DNA of 64,000 nt from Oleiharenicola sp. (GTDB lineage Bacteria; Verrucomicrobiota; Verrucomicrobiia; Opitutales; Opitutaceae): NCBI GenBank assembly GCA_025363455.1, contig JANYDW010000038.1, forward strand, positions 1 to 64,000, written 5' to 3'. Positions 52,980-60,816 of the stretch are shown piece by piece. A program made the position numbers and the translations under genes. Each line of letters starts with the position of its first letter. The stretch's first letter is position 1. Under the pieces are notes generated by a model, which saw nothing but the letters and a program-made list of their open reading frames with translations, was not told the origin of the DNA and did not search any database.

Positions 52980-53471
52980 ATGAGCATCACCACCGCCACG
53001 TCATCGCTGGCCGGCAAATATCTTACCGTTGCCCTCGCCGGCGAGTCCTACGGCATCGCCGTCCTCAAGGTACGTGAGATCATCCGCCTGCAGAAGATCA
53101 CTCCGGTCCCGCATATGCCGGATTTCGTGAAGGGGGTCATCAACCTGCGCGGCCGGGTCATCCCGGTCATCGATCTGCGGCTCAAGTTCGGCCTCCGCGC
53201 GGTGGACACCGAACGCACTTGCATCGTGGTCGTGCGCCTCGTCACGGTCGCCGACGGCTCGAACGCGATGGGGCTGATCGTCGACTGCGTGGAAGAGGTG
53301 GTAAATCTGACCGCCGGCCAGATTGAACCGACGCCGGAATTCGGCGTGTCCCTCGGCGCCTCCTGCCTGCTGGGCATGGCGAAGGTAAACGACCAGGTCA
53401 AAACCCTGCTCGATATTGAACGAGTCGTGAACGCCACGATTCTGGCGAAAGCCGCGATCGGGCCTGCCTGA
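52980..53471 (+). CDS. cheW: Chemotaxis coupling protein CheW
   Basis: A 163-residue CheW. Typical parts are YGIAVLKVREIIRLQKITPV, PHMPDFVKGVINLRGRVIPV and IDLRLKFGL, the last containing the NLRGxxxPVIDLR signature. It joins MCPs to CheA kinase. It begins 6 bp after the MCP stop and must be co-transcribed. No CheA, CheB or CheR gene lies in the window, so this pair has to use a kinase encoded elsewhere. Confidence 0.95.
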   Translation: MSITTATSSLAGKYLTVALAGESYGIAVLKVREIIRLQKITPVPHMPDFVKGVINLRGRVIPVIDLRLKFGLRAVDTERTCIVVVRLVTVADGSNAMGLIVDCVEEVVNLTAGQIEPTPEFGVSLGASCLLGMAKVNDQVKTLLDIERVVNATILAKAAIGPA

Positions 53472-53620
53472 TCTGTTCGCGGCCACCGCTGTCGGGGCTC
53501 TCGTTCCCGGCCCTGACATCGAGACCGTCGGCCAGCCAATTTTGGACATTATTTTCGCGGATCCAAACGCGGCGCTTGCCGCCCAACCTAGAATCGGGAA
53601 TCTGAATCGAAAATTGAAAC

Positions 53621-53705
53621 GCTCGGGTGATGGAATGGCAGACATGCGGGTCTTTGAAGCCCATGCCGTAAGGCGTGTGGGTTCGAGTCCCACCCCCGAG
53701 CACCA
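53621..53705 (+). tRNA. Class II tRNA, Leu-like body, apparent anticodon UUG, encoded CCA
   Basis: The 85-nt sequence folds as a tRNA: acceptor GCTCGGG/CCCGAGC (7 bp), D-arm with the leucine-type GGAATGGCAGAC, anticodon loop CTTTGAA (53652-53658) flanked by CGGGT/GCCCA, a variable arm GCC-GTAA-GGC, T-arm GTGGG-TTCGAGT-CCCAC, discriminator A and CCA. Three features are odd: the anticodon at 53654-53656 reads UUG (a Gln codon reader) on a long-arm body; the first anticodon-stem pair is C.A; and one extra C lies between T-stem and acceptor, giving 13 rather than 12 nt on the 3' side. It ends 18 bp before the araC start. It may be a working tRNA, a suppressor or a decayed copy. Confidence 0.75.
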
Positions 53706-53723
53706 CACATCCCTCGCCAATAC

Positions 53724-54590
53724 ATGAAGACCGCCTACGAGCCCCTTTATTTCTACCGGGGATCGGATGCGGCCTCGATCGAGGTGGCCCGTCCGGTGCT
53801 CGGGTTTCTCAATGTGGTGACGATCAACGATGATTTTGTTTTTCCGCGTCACCAGCATTTCAACTACCAGTTGATCTTCACCAAGCGCGGCATCTACCGC
53901 TGCCTGGTGAACGATGTCCGGCTCACGATGAAGGCGGGCGAAATCCTGCTGGTCAAGCCGGGGGACTGGCACGAGGACCACGGTCGGAAGGGCCTGGTGT
54001 ACCACGCATTGAACTTCGAACTCGCCGGGGGCGGAGGCGAACGCGGCATCGACATTGTTTTCCAGCCGGGCATCGCGCCGCACCAGCAGGTGTTGCGCGG
54101 CCGGAATACGGAATGCTGGAGCATCATCGACGGCATGCAAACCGAGGCCACGCGGACGGACCCGTTTGTGGCTCATCTGGAAAATGCCCTGCTGCTCGAG
54201 TTGTTTTGGCGGATCATCAGGGCGCTGCCTCGCATCCGCCTTTCCTCGGTGTTGCTCCACCGATCGGAACAGCAGGCGTTCAGCGAGCGGTTGCGCCGCG
54301 TGTTCGACGGCCACCTCGACAAGCCCCTCGATGCGGAAAGCGTGGCGGCGCAGTTGGGCGTCAGCGTGCGCACGCTCACCACCCGCTGCCGCGAGATCAC
54401 GGAGAAGCCGCCGATGCAGGCGTTCATGACGCACAAGATGGACTATGCCGCACAGTTGTTGCAGATCACCTCCCTGCCCGTGAAGGCCATCAGCTACCGG
54501 CTCGGTTTCCAGAACCAATATCATTTTTCACGGGTGTTCCGCCGGTTCATGGGCCAGCCTCCGACGGCCTTCCGCGCGTTGCCGAAATAG
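53724..54590 (+). CDS. AraC-family transcriptional regulator with cupin sensor domain
   Basis: A 288-residue regulator. The N-terminal cupin-type ligand domain includes HFNYQLIFTKRGIYRCLV and EILLVKPGDWHEDHG. The C-terminal double HTH has LDAESVAAQLGVSVRTLTTR and ISYRLGFQNQYHFSRVFRR. Members of this type usually sense a sugar and activate the neighbouring catabolic genes. It lies on the same strand, 235 bp upstream of the TonB receptor gene, and is its likely regulator. Confidence 0.93.
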   Translation: MKTAYEPLYFYRGSDAASIEVARPVLGFLNVVTINDDFVFPRHQHFNYQLIFTKRGIYRCLVNDVRLTMKAGEILLVKPGDWHEDHGRKGLVYHALNFELAGGGGERGIDIVFQPGIAPHQQVLRGRNTECWSIIDGMQTEATRTDPFVAHLENALLLELFWRIIRALPRIRLSSVLLHRSEQQAFSERLRRVFDGHLDKPLDAESVAAQLGVSVRTLTTRCREITEKPPMQAFMTHKMDYAAQLLQITSLPVKAISYRLGFQNQYHFSRVFRRFMGQPPTAFRALPK

Positions 54591-54660
54591 ATATCTCTTG
54601 GCGAAACAGGGCATTTTCTGGCGCCGGGGTTTTTTGCTAGACTGGGAGAGTTAAAAACCC

Positions 54661-54679
54661 GCCCGCCCCCGCGGGCTTT
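54661..54679 (+). terminator. Weak hairpin after the araC gene
   Basis: GCCCGC-CCCC-GCGGGC followed by TTT, 70 bp after the regulator stop. A short T-run makes it a weak terminator. The rest of 54591-54825 should carry the promoter of the TonB receptor gene, but no clear box was found. Confidence 0.4.
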
Positions 54680-54825
54680 GCCCTCCAGACGATCCTTTGC
54701 TTGCGCCGGCCCCGGCCGGCGCAAACACCCGGCAAGTCTGTTCCCCCCACCCCAAACGCCTCGCGCACTTTCCGGAACAGCCGGAATGAAGCGGGACGGA
54801 GTTTTGCCCAAATCAGAACCAGTAT

Positions 54826-57800
54826 ATGAGAACCACCTGCCTTCCCCTCCTCGCCGGCCTTCTTTTGCTGCCGGCTTTGCCCCTCGGGGCTCAAGCAACC
54901 AACGCCCAATCCGCTCCGGGCACCACCCCCGCCAGCCGGAGTCCCGTCCGGAAGGAAGCGGAAGAAACCATCGAGCTCTCGCCCTTTACCGTCACTGGCG
55001 AAGGCGACAAGGGCTATCGGGCGGCGAGCACGCTCGCGGGCACCCGGATCAACACCAGCCTGCGCGATACCGGCTCCGCTATCACCGTGCTAACGGAGGA
55101 GTTTTTCAAAGATACCGGCGCCACCAGTGCGGAATCGACCCTCGTCTATGCGACGAATGCCGAAGCCGGTGGCCTGGGCGGAAGCATGTCGGGTGCGTCC
55201 ATCACCGCCTATGCCGACTATGAGTTGACCCGCTACCGCCCCCAGACCCAGACCCGCATCCGCGGCCTGACGGCGGCTGATCTCACCCGTGATTTGTTCC
55301 TGACCGATATCCCCTTCAACACCTACAATACCGGACGCGTCGATATCCAGCGCGGACCCAATTCGCTCCTCTTCGGCCTGGGCAGCCCCGGTGGCATCAT
55401 CAACAACGTCCTGAATCAGGCGCTCTACAAGAACTCCCTGGAAGTCAGCCTCCGCATGGATCAATATGGCAGCAACCGGACGACGTCTGATATTAATCTG
55501 CAGATTATCCCCAAGGAATTGGCGATCCGGGTGGACACTCTTTACGGCGACACGATATTCCGGCAAAAACCGGCTTTCGAAATAGAAAAACGCCTTTATC
55601 TCGCGGCCAAGTATGAGCCGAAATGGCTGAAGTTTCCCAGTGCCCATACCATGCTGAAAGGCAGTTATGAGTATGGTGATATCAGTGCCAACCGCCCTCG
55701 CATCCGCCCGTTGCAGGATCAAATCAGCCCTTGGTTCAACACCAGCGGCCTGAACAAACTCACTGTCGACCCGGCGAATGTTGCGGCCAATCGTGCGCTC
55801 TATCCGATCCTCGGCAGTCCGCCGCGCGGCGGTGGCAATGTGGTCGCGGCAATGTGGGCCAACCCCAACTCAGACGTCCAGGGTGGCACCGGTATCACCC
55901 CCTATGTGCAGCTGGGCCGCAACACCGCGTCCAACAGCCCGGCCTTGCCGCGCCTCGAGTGGGTCGCCATCGGCTCCCGCAGTCAAAGTCCGGCTGCCTC
56001 CACCGCCTGGGGCGCCACGGCCTTCCCCGGTTTCTACAAGAGCCAGGAGCTGCTGGACCCGACCGTGTTCAATTTCTTCGATTTGCTGATCGATGGCCCG
56101 AACAAGTCGGAGCACCAGAAATTCAATGCGACGATCTTCACCCTCGAGCAGACCCTACTGGACGGCAACGTCGGTTTCGAACTCGGGGTTGACCGGCAGT
56201 ATTACTACAGCACGGCGGACGCCGCGACCACCGGCTTCAGTGACGGCCAGGCTCTGGCGGTTGACATGAACACCACGCTGATCAACGGCCTGCCCAACCC
56301 CAACCTCGGCCGCCCCTATATTTCGTCCGACTCGCTGGACAACGCCTCGGATCGGAACACGCGCGAGTCCTTTCGCGCGACCGTCTATGGGATCTTCGAT
56401 GCCCGGAAGCACATGCGGGAGTCCTTTCTCTCCCGGTTAATCGGCCGCAATACGTTCACCGGGCTCTACACCAAGCAGTCGGTGTATAAGGATTTTCGCA
56501 AATGGCGTGGCTACGTCGCCAGCGGTCAGCACAGTGCGGCGCTGCTGGGCACCAATGCGGCGACCGGCCTGCCCAATGCCGGCCTGAGCTTCATTGTGGG
56601 CCTCCACTATCTGGGTGACAGCCTGCTCACCCGCCCGCAGCTCGCTGGCGCGAACATCTCGAATATCAAGGTTCTCCAGGAGCCCCGGGGCGGCCTGCAG
56701 GGGTCCTACTGGAATCCGTCCGTCAACAGCGGCGCGGGCGGGTTTGTCACCACCCCCTTCAGCATCGTCTCCCGCTACTATGACGGCCCGGGCTATATGT
56801 GGAGTCCCAGCTCCCGGAAAGAGCGGACGGACATTACGTCGCGCGCTTTCGTCTGGCAGGGACAAATGCTCGACGGCGTCATCGTCCCCACCATGGGCTG
56901 GCGCGAGGACGCAGCCAAAGCCTACAATTCGGGCCCGCCCCCGACCAATCCGGTCACCGCCCACGCTCTGCCGGACAGCCCCCTGTTTGTGGTGCCGAAG
57001 ATCCCGACGACGAATGTCGAAGGCGAAACCTTGAGCTATGGTGTCGTCGTCCACACCCCCAGGTCCATCAGCCAGCATCTGCCGGCCGGCCTGAACTTCG
57101 ACTTGTTTTGGAACAAGTCCGACAACTTCCAGGCCGGAGCCGGCCGCACGGATGTCTATGGGCGGAACCAGCCGTCGCTCTCAGGCCAAACCAAAGACTA
57201 CGGTTTCCTTATCTCCGTGCTGGATGACAAATTCATCCTCCGGGTGAATAAATATGAGTCGGCCGTGCAGAATGACAGCGTCGTCATCTTGAACCGGTTC
57301 TACCCCGGTGACGTTGAAGCCGGCTATTGGGATTCCGCCTCCCGGGCCTACAATATCATCAATCACCCGGCCGCAGTCGCTGCCTGGAATGCCAACCTGC
57401 CTTCCACGCTCTTCCAGCAGGGCTGGGCCTTCGCGCGCACCCCCACCCTGGACGGCTTCACCACCTTCAACAACCGGCCGGGCGGCGGCATCGAGCTGGC
57501 GGACACCGTTTCGACCGGCATGGAATACGAGCTGACCTACAATCCCACCCCGAACTGGCGCATCTCGATCAATGCCTCGAAACAGGATGCGGTTCGCAGC
57601 AACATTGGCAAAGACCTCGATGAGTGGATCGCCACCCGGCGCGTGATCTGGGAAGGTCCCGCAGGCGATCTGGAACGGGAAGGCGCCGGCGGCGCGACCC
57701 TGCGCGACTACGCCAGGGCCAACATCATCATCCCTTATGAGACCTTCAAGAACCAGAGCGGCGGTCCCGCCCAGGAAGTCCGCAAGTGGCGGTGGAACGC

Positions 57801-58152
57801 GATCACGAATTACACCTTCGCGAGCGGAATGCTGAAGGGTTTCAGCGTGGGCGGCGGTGTCCGCTGGCAGGACAAAGTGGCAATCGGCTTCCCCGTGCAA
57901 TTGGTCAACGGGGTCGCGCAGTTTAATGTCAAGGCGCCCTATTATGGCCCGACCGAGACCAACATTGATTTCTGGCTTGGTTACGAGCACCGGCTGACCG
58001 ACCGCATCGGATGGCGCGCCCAACTCAACGTGAAGAACGCCAACATCGGTGACAAACTGATTCCGGTCTATGCCCAGCCTGATGGCACGATCGGCGGCGC
58101 CCGCCTGGCCGAATCCCGGCTGTTCTATCTCACCAATACCTTCACGTTCTAA
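54826..58152 (+). CDS. TonB-dependent outer-membrane receptor
   Basis: A 1108-residue outer-membrane importer. A signal peptide (LPLLAGLLLLPALPLGAQA) is followed by a Pro/Thr stretch and the motif ETIELSPFTVTGEGDKGYRA, the style of start common in Opitutaceae receptors. The plug domain contains RIRGLTAADLTRDLFLTDIP and RVDIQRGPNSLLFGLGSPGG. A long 22-strand-type barrel ends in the required aromatic residue (YLTNTFTF). No SusD partner follows. Placed before a beta-mannosidase, it probably takes up mannose-containing oligosaccharides. Confidence 0.95.
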   Translation: MRTTCLPLLAGLLLLPALPLGAQATNAQSAPGTTPASRSPVRKEAEETIELSPFTVTGEGDKGYRAASTLAGTRINTSLRDTGSAITVLTEEFFKDTGATSAESTLVYATNAEAGGLGGSMSGASITAYADYELTRYRPQTQTRIRGLTAADLTRDLFLTDIPFNTYNTGRVDIQRGPNSLLFGLGSPGGIINNVLNQALYKNSLEVSLRMDQYGSNRTTSDINLQIIPKELAIRVDTLYGDTIFRQKPAFEIEKRLYLAAKYEPKWLKFPSAHTMLKGSYEYGDISANRPRIRPLQDQISPWFNTSGLNKLTVDPANVAANRALYPILGSPPRGGGNVVAAMWANPNSDVQGGTGITPYVQLGRNTASNSPALPRLEWVAIGSRSQSPAASTAWGATAFPGFYKSQELLDPTVFNFFDLLIDGPNKSEHQKFNATIFTLEQTLLDGNVGFELGVDRQYYYSTADAATTGFSDGQALAVDMNTTLINGLPNPNLGRPYISSDSLDNASDRNTRESFRATVYGIFDARKHMRESFLSRLIGRNTFTGLYTKQSVYKDFRKWRGYVASGQHSAALLGTNAATGLPNAGLSFIVGLHYLGDSLLTRPQLAGANISNIKVLQEPRGGLQGSYWNPSVNSGAGGFVTTPFSIVSRYYDGPGYMWSPSSRKERTDITSRAFVWQGQMLDGVIVPTMGWREDAAKAYNSGPPPTNPVTAHALPDSPLFVVPKIPTTNVEGETLSYGVVVHTPRSISQHLPAGLNFDLFWNKSDNFQAGAGRTDVYGRNQPSLSGQTKDYGFLISVLDDKFILRVNKYESAVQNDSVVILNRFYPGDVEAGYWDSASRAYNIINHPAAVAAWNANLPSTLFQQGWAFARTPTLDGFTTFNNRPGGGIELADTVSTGMEYELTYNPTPNWRISINASKQDAVRSNIGKDLDEWIATRRVIWEGPAGDLEREGAGGATLRDYARANIIIPYETFKNQSGGPAQEVRKWRWNAITNYTFASGMLKGFSVGGGVRWQDKVAIGFPVQLVNGVAQFNVKAPYYGPTETNIDFWLGYEHRLTDRIGWRAQLNVKNANIGDKLIPVYAQPDGTIGGARLAESRLFYLTNTFTF

Positions 58153-58163
58153 GAGGGCCAACC

Positions 58164-58186
58164 GGCGGTGGCCGCTTGCCACCGCC
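58164..58186 (+). terminator. Stem-loop between receptor and beta-mannosidase genes
   Basis: A perfect 9-bp stem GGCGGTGGC/GCCACCGCC with loop CGCTT, 12 bp after the receptor stop. No T-run follows. It could stabilise the receptor mRNA end or lower read-through into the beta-mannosidase gene. Confidence 0.6.
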
Positions 58187-58257
58187 ATACCGGATCCTCT
58201 GCGCGCGGCCACCCGTGTTCGTGCGCAGGGGCGGTTTCTTTCTGTTTGAACATTTCC

Positions 58258-60816
58258 ATGCTTTCCCGCCACGCGCTGTCATCCACCGGCATTGAGTTTT
58301 ACCATGCGGACCGCGATGCTTGGTTTCCCGCCCGCGTGCCGGGCTGCATCCACACGGATCTTCAGCGGCACGATCTGATTCCCGATCCGTTTTATGGGCG
58401 TAACGAAGCCGGGCTGCAATGGATCGAGCGCCGCGAGTGGCGCTACCGCGCGCGGTTTGACGTCCCGGCGGACGCCCGGGACCGGGCGCACGTCGACCTG
58501 GTCTTTGGTGGGCTCGATACGCTTGCCGAGGTCAGGCTCAACGGCCAGCTCCTCGGCCGGACGGAAAACATGTTTGTGTCGCATCGGTGGGACGTCCGTT
58601 CCCTGCTGCAGCCGGCCGGCAATCTGCTGGAGGTGATTTTCCATAATACGCTCGATTACCTGCGCGACCGGGCATCGTGGCAGCCTTTCCGGGAACGCAA
58701 TGATCCTGTGGGCGGGCGCTCCCGCATTCGCAAGGAACAATGCCAGTATGGCTGGGATTGGGGCCCGCGCTTTGTCACCTGCGGCATCTGGCAGCCGGTG
58801 TGGCTCGAGTCCTGGGATGGCGCACGGCTCGACCAGGTTCACCTCCGCCAGGACCATCAGCCCGATCACACGGTGGTGCTGCACGCCACCGCGGCACTCG
58901 ATCGCCCAGGCGGCGGCGAACGCCTGGTGCTCTCCGTCGCGCTGGACGGCCGGACCGTCGCGGAGAGCGCCCCGTTGCCGGACGCGCTCGCCGTCGCCAT
59001 TCCCGACCCTCAGCTGTGGTGGCCGAACGGGCAAGGGGCGCAACCCCTCTACACGGTCACCTTGCAGTTGCTCGGACCCGACGGGGTGGTGCGCGACGAG
59101 TGGACCCGGCGGGTGGGCCTGCGGACCATCGAGTTGGTCCGGGAGAAAGACACCGCGGGCGAATCGTTCTATTTCCGCGTGAACGGGCGGCCGGTCTTCG
59201 CGAAGGGCGCAAACTGGATTCCCGACCACGCGTTCGTCACGGAGTGCGCGCCGCAGGGCTACCGTGAGCGGCTGCAGGCGGCGGCCGACGTGCACATGAA
59301 CATGCTTCGCGTTTGGGGTGGCGGCATCTACGAGGCCCGGGACTTCTACGACACCTGCGATGAACTCGGCCTGCTGGTCTGGCAGGACTTCATGTTCGCC
59401 TGTGCGATCTATCCGGGCGTCCCGGAGTATTGCGAGCTGGTGCGCCGGGAGGCGGAGCACCAGGTCCGCCGCCTCCGGCACCACGCCTGCCTCGCGCTCT
59501 GGTGCGGGAACAATGAGATTGTGATGATGGACATCTACATCGCGGAGCTGCGCCGCGATCCCGCGAAGTGGGCCGACTACCAGCGGGTCTTTCACGGGGT
59601 TCTGCCCGAGGTGGTGGCGGCGTTCGATCCGGCCACGCCTTACTGGCCCTCGTCACCGTGGACCCCGGAGGAATATTCGGCCGACGCCAACCATGAGGGA
59701 GCGGGGGACACCCACTTCTGGGAGGTGTGGCATGCGCGGGCACCGGTGAAGGCCTACGAAAAACTCACCACCCGCTTCTGCTCGGAGTTCGGCATGCAGT
59801 CCTACGCCTCGGCCGGGCTCGCCGCCACTTTTTGCCCGCCGGAGTCCCTGAACGTGTTCTCCCTGGTGATGGAGAACCACCAGAAGAACGGCGGCGGCAA
59901 TGCGACGATGCTCCACTACATGGCACAGCGCTACCGTTACGTCGACGGCTACGCCAACCTCGCCTATCTCTCACAGCTCAACCAGGCGTATTGCATGAAG
60001 GTGGGCGTCGAGCACTTCCGGCACCGCATGCCCCGGACGATGGGCGCGCTCTACTGGCAGATCAACGACTGCTGGCCGGTCGCCTCGTGGAGTTCCATCG
60101 AATATGGCGGCCACTGGAAGGCGCTGCACCACGAGGCCCGCCGGTTCTTCGCCCCGAGCCTCGTGTATCTCCGCACGGAGGCCGGCGTGGAAATCGGCCG
60201 CTACAACGAAATTTTCAACCACCTCACCTGCTACGAAATCTTCACCATCCACGACGCCCCTCAGCCCCGCGCCGCCCGGCTGCGCTGGTCGTTGCGCACT
60301 CTGGACGGACGGATCGTCGGGACCGAGCACGCCCGCGAGGTGGCGCTGGCGTCCCGCCAGGTGGTGCGACAGGCGGAGTGCGCGTGCGCCGAGGCGGGGG
60401 AGGAATGGACCCGCGAGCAGATTTACCTGCGCGCCGAACTGCTCGACGTGAACGGGGCCCGACTGTCGGTACAAACCGCCTTTTTCACGGTCCCGCGCTT
60501 CATTGACTTCGTGGATCCCCGGATCACGGCGGAGATCCGCGCGGCCGCCGGCGGAGGGGCAGAGATCACCCTCCGCAGTGTTTCCCTCGCGCCCGCCGTC
60601 GCGCTCGGGTTTGGCGGGATGCCAGTCTGGCTTTCCGACAACTGGTTCGACCTGACGGCAGGTGAAGACTACACTGTAACTGCGCGCCTGCCGGCGGGCG
60701 TGGGGATTGACGCGCTGCGCGCGGCGATCACCATCACTTCGCTCTGGCACAGCTACCAGCCATGCGCCCGGTCCAGCAACGCCGCGGACGGGGGTCGCGC
60801 CCATCACCCCAGTTAA
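58258..60816 (+). CDS. GH2-family beta-mannosidase
   Basis: An 852-residue glycoside hydrolase. Sequence RIRKEQCQYGWDWGPRF is typical of beta-mannosidases. The acid/base is E420 in LWCGNNEIV and the nucleophile E510 in RFCSEFGMQSYAS. Domains in order are the sugar-binding jelly roll, an immunoglobulin-like sandwich, the TIM barrel (about 320-680) and C-terminal sandwiches. No signal peptide is seen from ATG 58258, so it probably acts in the cytoplasm or leaves by another route. It is followed 10 bp later by an MFS transporter. Confidence 0.93.
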   Translation: MLSRHALSSTGIEFYHADRDAWFPARVPGCIHTDLQRHDLIPDPFYGRNEAGLQWIERREWRYRARFDVPADARDRAHVDLVFGGLDTLAEVRLNGQLLGRTENMFVSHRWDVRSLLQPAGNLLEVIFHNTLDYLRDRASWQPFRERNDPVGGRSRIRKEQCQYGWDWGPRFVTCGIWQPVWLESWDGARLDQVHLRQDHQPDHTVVLHATAALDRPGGGERLVLSVALDGRTVAESAPLPDALAVAIPDPQLWWPNGQGAQPLYTVTLQLLGPDGVVRDEWTRRVGLRTIELVREKDTAGESFYFRVNGRPVFAKGANWIPDHAFVTECAPQGYRERLQAAADVHMNMLRVWGGGIYEARDFYDTCDELGLLVWQDFMFACAIYPGVPEYCELVRREAEHQVRRLRHHACLALWCGNNEIVMMDIYIAELRRDPAKWADYQRVFHGVLPEVVAAFDPATPYWPSSPWTPEEYSADANHEGAGDTHFWEVWHARAPVKAYEKLTTRFCSEFGMQSYASAGLAATFCPPESLNVFSLVMENHQKNGGGNATMLHYMAQRYRYVDGYANLAYLSQLNQAYCMKVGVEHFRHRMPRTMGALYWQINDCWPVASWSSIEYGGHWKALHHEARRFFAPSLVYLRTEAGVEIGRYNEIFNHLTCYEIFTIHDAPQPRAARLRWSLRTLDGRIVGTEHAREVALASRQVVRQAECACAEAGEEWTREQIYLRAELLDVNGARLSVQTAFFTVPRFIDFVDPRITAEIRAAAGGGAEITLRSVSLAPAVALGFGGMPVWLSDNWFDLTAGEDYTVTARLPAGVGIDALRAAITITSLWHSYQPCARSSNAADGGRAHHPS

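Follow-up and report, generated by a model that had tools for sequence, protein, structure and literature searches.

How a tRNA gene that joins the anticodon of one isotype to the body of a different one comes to stand in a bacterial genome, and whether its product takes part in decoding, is the question raised by positions 53621-53705 (+) of the window, the 64,000-nucleotide stretch of Oleiharenicola sp. DNA analysed here. ARAGORN, run on the window, called a tRNA gene with anticodon TTG over this interval, the one further tRNA being a tRNA-Glu, and positions 53621-53702 scored 42.1 bits with the Rfam tRNA model, for which the gathering score is 29. Inspection by eye revealed a 7-bp acceptor stem (53621-53627 with 53695-53701), a Leu-type D-arm, A73 and an encoded CCA, together with the long variable arm of a class II tRNA (13 nt, 53664-53676) and a T-arm of sequence GTGGG-TTCGAGT-CCCAC followed by one extra C. 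The anticodon loop CTTTGAA lies at 53652-53658, with the anticodon TTG at 53654-53656, and the anticodon stem is composed of four pairs plus C27.A43, which a scripted check identified as the sole non-canonical pair of the cloverleaf. A previous sequence-only reading of this DNA had described a long-arm UUG tRNA with a Leu-type D-loop, A73 and CCA, a description confirmed by ARAGORN, Rfam and inspection; its further points, an extra C and a C.A pair in the anticodon stem, were likewise recovered, by alignment to a sister copy and by the cloverleaf check. A pattern for a class II Leu body with UUG had a single match in the window, and none of 100 shuffles contained one.

The assignment of the body to the leucine class also agrees with the result of a Leu-specific covariance model, which was built from 22 Leu tRNAs and run on 41 loci, the training members scoring high by construction. 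With this model, the window tRNA reached 95.1 bits, in comparison with 95.6-109.5 bits for the other Leu tRNAs, except for the genome's own tRNA-Leu(CAA) at 88.0, and with 37-51 bits for the non-Leu tRNAs of the genome that were tried (Ser, Gln, Thr, Lys, Tyr, and Glu). Its score was thus the second lowest of 33 matches, comprising canonical Leu tRNAs and the window copy. The alignment of 22 Leu tRNAs, a chosen set with 15 UAG, 3 CAG, 2 GAG, 1 UAA, and 1 CAA anticodons, has an invariant A35 (22/22), so that the window tRNA resembles tRNA-Leu in its body but not in its anticodon UUG, where A35 is replaced. Cloverleaf energies were −31.7 for the window tRNA, −32.8 for its parent (see below) and −31.7 for the UAG gene of one relative; minimum-free-energy folding of the unmodified RNAs took all three away from the cloverleaf alike, and is for this reason uninformative.

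A search of 57 genomes with the 85-base sequence as query located another copy in the same genome (G000:C44:4415-4498), 95% identical, which is a tRNA-Leu(UAG). The two copies are equal in 81 of 85 aligned columns and present four differences. One of them, A at position 70 in the window (U3-A70) vs G in the C44 copy (U3.G70), belongs to the C44 side, since near relatives with the GCTCGGG acceptor carry A70 as the window does. The changes on the window side are A35U, an A to T substitution at 53655 that turned the parental anticodon TAG into TTG (UAG into UUG in the RNA); G43A at 53663, which resulted in the C27.A43 mismatch in the anticodon stem; and the addition of one C between T-stem and acceptor, where a run of five C (53693-53697) corresponds to four in the sister copy. 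All three hit functional places. The variable arm is the same in both copies, and so are the D-arm and the T-stem GTGGG/CCCAC. This T-stem is absent from the UAG genes of the nearest relatives, although the observation is weak evidence alone because the genome's own tRNA-Leu(CAA) carries it as well. Judged from these comparisons and from the searches of relatives described below, the window tRNA is shown to be a lineage-specific duplicate of the tRNA-Leu(UAG) of its own genome.

The C44 copy differs from the window copy also in adjoining an integrase. A tyrosine recombinase/integrase frame (L031 3184-4659, +; PF00589) runs into the antisense strand of the parent tRNA, and an integrase overlapping a tRNA gene is typical of islands integrated at a tRNA 3′ end; the parent was accordingly read as the integration site of an island. 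The displaced tRNA 3′ end that such an insertion should leave behind did not turn up in a search tolerating up to 3 mismatches, which matched only the parent and two other Leu tRNAs at their 3′ ends, in a genome that is 94.94% complete.

The likeness between the two copies extends upstream of the tRNA. Within the first 50 bp, 36 of 49 aligned bases match, with two additional gap columns, the maximum of 300 shuffles being 33, whereas in the next two 50-bp upstream blocks and in the 60 bp downstream the matches were no better than in shuffled sequences. Two promoter-like hexamers, TTGCCG (53576-53581) and AATCTG (53599-53604), are separated by a 17-nt spacer, the second ending 16 nt before the tRNA, and the pair is common to the upstream region of the parent. 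A sigma-70 consensus scan gave no match at these hexamers; from its conservation, we read the pair as the putative promoter of the tRNA. Among 24 upstream regions compared with that of the window tRNA, the best matches were those of the C44 copy (36), the UAG gene of G015 (35), and G003 (32), followed by G020a (31) and the genome's own tRNA-Gln(UUG) (30), both slightly above the 95% shuffle level, with the rest at or below it. In view of this likeness to other tRNA genes, part of the similarity may be a general one of tRNA promoters. Given the shared 50 bp, the promoter-like region and the tRNA were most likely copied together, as a unit of about 135 bp.

The copy sits between cheW (52980-53471, +; PF01584) and an araC-TonB-glycosidase cluster, the first gene of which encodes an AraC-family regulator (53724-54590, +; PF12833, PF00165, and PF02311). 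No tRNA was found within the fetched flanks beside the araC relatives (4 of 4 loci, L054-L057) or beside nine cheW relatives, so that the tRNA seems to have been added to this locus. A Pfam scan of seven neighbour proteins in the window revealed neither a synthetase nor a mobile-element family. An island boundary at the window tRNA was considered and discarded: the last 16 bases of the gene had one other near match, at position 149736 of C57:1-184000, which lies inside a long open frame with 1 mismatch in 16 bases and 4 in 20 and was read as chance, and the 25-base 3′ end gave no other match in C57:1-184000 with up to 6 mismatches. As to the neighbourhood itself, the araC-TonB receptor-GH2 cluster spans positions 53724-60816 of the window, and the comparison with G015 points to an uneven history, the TonB protein being 90.5% identical (400 residues compared) and AraC only 62%.

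The UUG form appears to be confined to this genome among those searched. A loose pattern matched 2 of 21 genomes of the genus, its own and G005, and the match in G005 proved not to be a tRNA. In the family, a closer pattern matched 1 of 252 genomes, while its UAG counterpart, identical except for TTAGAA, served as a control and matched 158 of 252, indicating that the pattern reaches about 63% of the genomes. Two UAG copies were seen by eye in three of these 158 genomes (G020, G169, and G307), and a plasmid search produced two distant matches only. The locus combines the body of one isotype with a foreign anticodon, as expected of an off-code tRNA, but not with conservation of a family across species. 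Close to the UAG gene of G025 lies a tRNA-like match of 94 nt (L045 1763-1856, −) that shares the 3′ half of that gene and is perhaps an integration remnant.

The comparison with the parent bears on whether the copy has been maintained. Substitutions between the window and C44 copies amounted to 3/84 in the body and 13/49 in the upstream flank (Fisher p = 0.00015), and those in the body on the window side were 2, where neutrality would predict about 11 (P about 0.001), an expectation that takes the flank as neutral and evenly split and a result that gene conversion would mimic. Having changed less than the flank, the body has for most of its history been constrained or subject to gene conversion. 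The acceptor, the T-, D- and variable arms and the CCA end are intact. With regard to decay, the window tRNA was the lowest-scoring among the 36 Rfam tRNA matches listed for its own genome (42.1 bits vs 51.3 for the parent) and has one mismatch and one bulge, the other stem pairs being standard and the score above the cut-off. The intact parts, the Leu score, the cloverleaf energy and the kept promoter-like region are equally compatible with a functional gene and with a recent pseudogene. The earlier proposal of a decayed tRNA is compatible with these data, and its parent can now be named as tRNA-Leu(UAG); among the arguments against a functional tRNA that had been named with it, absence from relatives was borne out (1 of 252 genomes) and a low score typical of a pseudo-tRNA was not, the score exceeding the tRNA cut-off.

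Altogether, we consider, with a probability of roughly 60%, that the locus is a young off-code duplicate of tRNA-Leu(UAG) drifting out of use, its product being at most a weak missense suppressor inserting leucine at CAA. The comparison shows a copy placed between cheW and the araC cluster, most likely as a unit of about 135 bp with the promoter-like region and the tRNA, after which A35U exchanged the leucine anticodon UAG for the glutamine anticodon UUG, G43A broke the outer pair of the anticodon stem and one C joined the run at the junction of T-stem and acceptor. Some transcription from the inherited promoter is likely; the bulge and the mismatch would make the RNA a poor substrate, charged, if at all, with leucine. 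It would then have little or no part in decoding and be on its way to becoming a pseudogene, with CAA staying glutamine and being read by the normal tRNA-Gln(UUG). If so, an early step of an anticodon switch would be seen here within one genome, with the parent, the copied promoter-like region and each change nameable, and the case raises the question of whether structural decay, such as the extra C and the mismatch, silences copies of this kind before they do harm.

The amino acid that such an RNA would carry can be predicted from its identity elements. Glutamine acceptor identity resides in U1-A72 and G73, which the genome's own tRNA-Gln displays, whereas the window tRNA has G1-C72, C2-G71, A73, and a long arm; it shares with tRNA-Gln the anticodon (UUG/CUG) but not the short variable loop, U1-A72, or G73. 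In E. coli, leucine identity is described as depending on A73 and on elements of the D-loop and T-loop, the anticodon not being an element (PMC9976931), and the E. coli elements readable by eye in the window tRNA are all present (A73, G18G19, A20a, A15-U48, and U54-A58). With the Leu elements intact and the Gln acceptor elements missing, LeuRS is the expected charging enzyme, and the RNA would be predicted to insert leucine at CAA. The sequence-only reading had invoked the indifference of LeuRS to the anticodon, which the account of E. coli in PMC9976931 supports, and had allowed for charging with Leu or Ser; of the two, leucine is retained as the expected amino acid, and serine is unlikely because of A73, C2-G71, the Leu-type D-loop and the Leu model score of 95.1 bits. 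Given that indifference (PMC9976931), a single base change is predicted to make a mistranslating tRNA.

A working missense suppressor is, in our estimation, unlikely, even though several observations favour it. The RNA would be expressed and charged with leucine by the ordinary LeuRS, and would turn a small share of CAA codons (perhaps also CAG) into leucine, a low-level statistical variation of the proteome in which the extra C and the mismatch would keep the efficiency tolerable. In its favour count the presence of the readable E. coli Leu elements, among which the anticodon does not figure (PMC9976931), the constraint on the body relative to the flank, the kept promoter-like region and the natural precedents of tRNA-ProX in Streptomyces and of nev-tRNAs in nematodes. 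Against it stand the failure to find the gene in relatives, the lack of a synthetase among the seven neighbour proteins scanned and, for yeast, the report in PMC9976931 that leucine identity requires A35 and G36 in vitro, although they are marginal in vivo.

The precedents themselves resemble the window tRNA in part. In nematodes, the nev-tRNAs combine a long-arm, Leu-type body with an anticodon for Gly or Ile and are leucylated in vitro, and they are described as matured and exported in cells, with no detectable misincorporation in the account of PMC4300185; those of C. elegans are mature but weakly expressed (PMC4300185), and their lack of detectable misincorporation also speaks against an active suppressor. 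They share with the window tRNA the Leu-type long arm, a non-Leu anticodon beside cognate normal tRNAs and the expected leucylation, but they form a nematode family, whereas the window tRNA is a single copy in one bacterial species among those searched. In Streptomyces, tRNA-ProX inserts Pro at Ala, Asn, and Thr codons and has its own ProRSx (PMC10365949). As portrayed there and in PMC11415595, it is, like the window tRNA, bacterial, with a body and an anticodon that belong to different isotypes; unlike it, the window tRNA has a Leu long-arm body, no partner synthetase among the neighbours scanned and no conserved family. The limited literature search found no bacterial Leu tRNA with a Gln anticodon, which is not a claim of absence.

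The extra C recalls tRNAs with unusual branch lengths. A selenocysteine or allo-tRNA reading of this base was rejected, as position 8 is U, which cannot pair with the extra C, and no eighth pair is formed. tRNA-Sec has an 8/5 acceptor branch, a UCA anticodon, and G73, whereas the window tRNA has a 7/5 branch with a bulge, UUG, and A73. Allo-tRNAs, as presented in PMC7609411, have a Ser-type body and 8/4 or 9/3 branches, combined in most cases with a non-Ser anticodon; the long arm, the off-code anticodon and the unusual length of the 3′ side of acceptor and T-stem are common to the window tRNA, but in place of their 12-bp 8/4 or 9/3 branch and Ser identity it displays 7 bp, a bulged C and 5 bp together with Leu-type elements.

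The meaning of CAA in this genome was examined from codon usage and from aligned sites, with genes predicted by a simple script and not by a gene finder. Normal tRNA-Gln(UUG), tRNA-Gln(CUG) and GlnRS are encoded, so that the window RNA would compete with the normal reader of CAA. In 464 kb of this genome (the window and 20 further stretches, 262 predicted genes, 116,900 codons), CAA accounted for 9.0 per 1000 codons and for 0.244 of the Gln codons, in comparison with shares of 0.185, 0.149, and 0.129 in samples of 120-140 kb, with higher GC3, from three relatives. At this frequency, an efficient suppressor would be costly. When 321 predicted genes were aligned with 120 fetched loci (47 genes with hits), CAA sites were aligned by best hit with Gln in 55/102 cases and with Leu in 3/102, and CAG sites in 258/479 and 15/479, respectively (p = 1 for both fractions). 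A change of code at CAA was discarded, the codon not being depleted and its Gln and Leu fractions being equal to those of CAG; as judged from these codon data, CAA is glutamine in this genome. The misreading of CAA suggested earlier has left no trace in the sampled codon usage or conservation, and this lack of depletion and of a Leu signal weighs against the suppressor; misreading at a low level is possible and would stay invisible in both tests. The more specific proposal of a one-step natural bacterial missense suppressor, in which a tRNA-Leu(UAG) duplicate with A35U, still charged by the ordinary LeuRS, would insert leucine at CAA at a low rate, attenuated by its bulged C and by C27.A43, with CAA still meaning glutamine, appears to us quite unlikely. 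If active, the tRNA would join the few code-breaking tRNAs known from bacteria, as a case involving leucine.

Another possibility is that the unit has been kept because its promoter drives araC, the tRNA body acting as a processing signal in an exapted leader. The distance of 18 bp from tRNA to araC ATG given in the sequence-only reading was verified in the sequence, and this short distance, which leaves little space for a separate araC promoter after the tRNA, is in line with such a leader, as is the result that no terminator-like site was found in 53450-53800. Nevertheless, the araC relatives in G015 (62%) and G005 (46%) keep the same downstream TonB gene with no tRNA in the fetched flanks, indicating that araC does not need the tRNA there, and the tRNA body is better conserved than the promoter region. 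An araC leader RNA, as initially suggested, is thus not supported by the araC relatives, and the exapted form of the idea is rather improbable. It is very improbable that the gene is an assembly artefact, with reads of the C44 gene misassembled or mutated: the genome is a draft of 83 contigs and the extra C falls in a homopolymer, but the flanks of the two copies differ on both sides, there are four separate differences and the locus lies inside a 193-kb contig.

That GlnRS charges the RNA through UUG, making it merely an extra, odd-shaped tRNA-Gln, is hardly credible: GlnRS is encoded in the genome, UUG is a GlnRS recognition element and two viral contigs pair a long-arm body and UUG with a Gln-type acceptor, but the acceptor features of both viral tRNAs are absent from the window tRNA, which keeps G1-C72, C2-G71, and A73 where the genome's own tRNA-Gln has U1-A72 and G73.

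These viral tRNAs came from a search of viral contigs with two pattern forms, which matched 10 stretches; tRNAs overlap three of these (L100, L183, and L185). A narrower pattern matched only contigs L100 and L183. The tRNAs at L100 7623-7707 (−) and L183 10893-10977 (+) are homologous, with 7 differences in 85 positions, among which those at bases 29 and 43 together preserve an anticodon-stem pair (C-G vs A-T). Both have UUG, U1-A72, G73, and U38, and look like class II tRNAs turned into tRNA-Gln; contig L183 also encodes an ordinary short-loop tRNA-Gln(UUG). They share with the window tRNA the Leu-like body and the UUG anticodon, but their Gln-type U1-A72, G73, and U38 correspond to a switch of identity rather than to a missense tRNA. 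The contrast suggests, on two cases only, that a Leu-body tRNA with UUG persists when its acceptor has changed as well, a change absent from the window copy.

In cellular genomes, a Leu-like long-arm UUG pattern matched 25 stretches in 84,980 species genomes, a lower bound given that the pattern was limited to the T-loop TTCGA and left out TTCAA and Ser-like forms. One of these stretches overlaps an ARAGORN tRNA, a long-arm UUG tRNA from an Acidobacteria MAG (L088 7828-7914, +) with A73, stems intact by eye and no encoded CCA; a search around it in 39 other genomes gave three weak matches. Among the phage matches listed, many were annotated as tRNA-Leu and others bore a protein name or nothing, and the one inspected was UAG. 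The third viral contig, L185, carries an array of 25 tRNAs (438-2443, −) in which the tRNA-Leu genes (CAA, GAG, and UAG) have short variable loops, and its UUG tRNA (1250-1333, −) displays a long arm, A1-U72, and U73.
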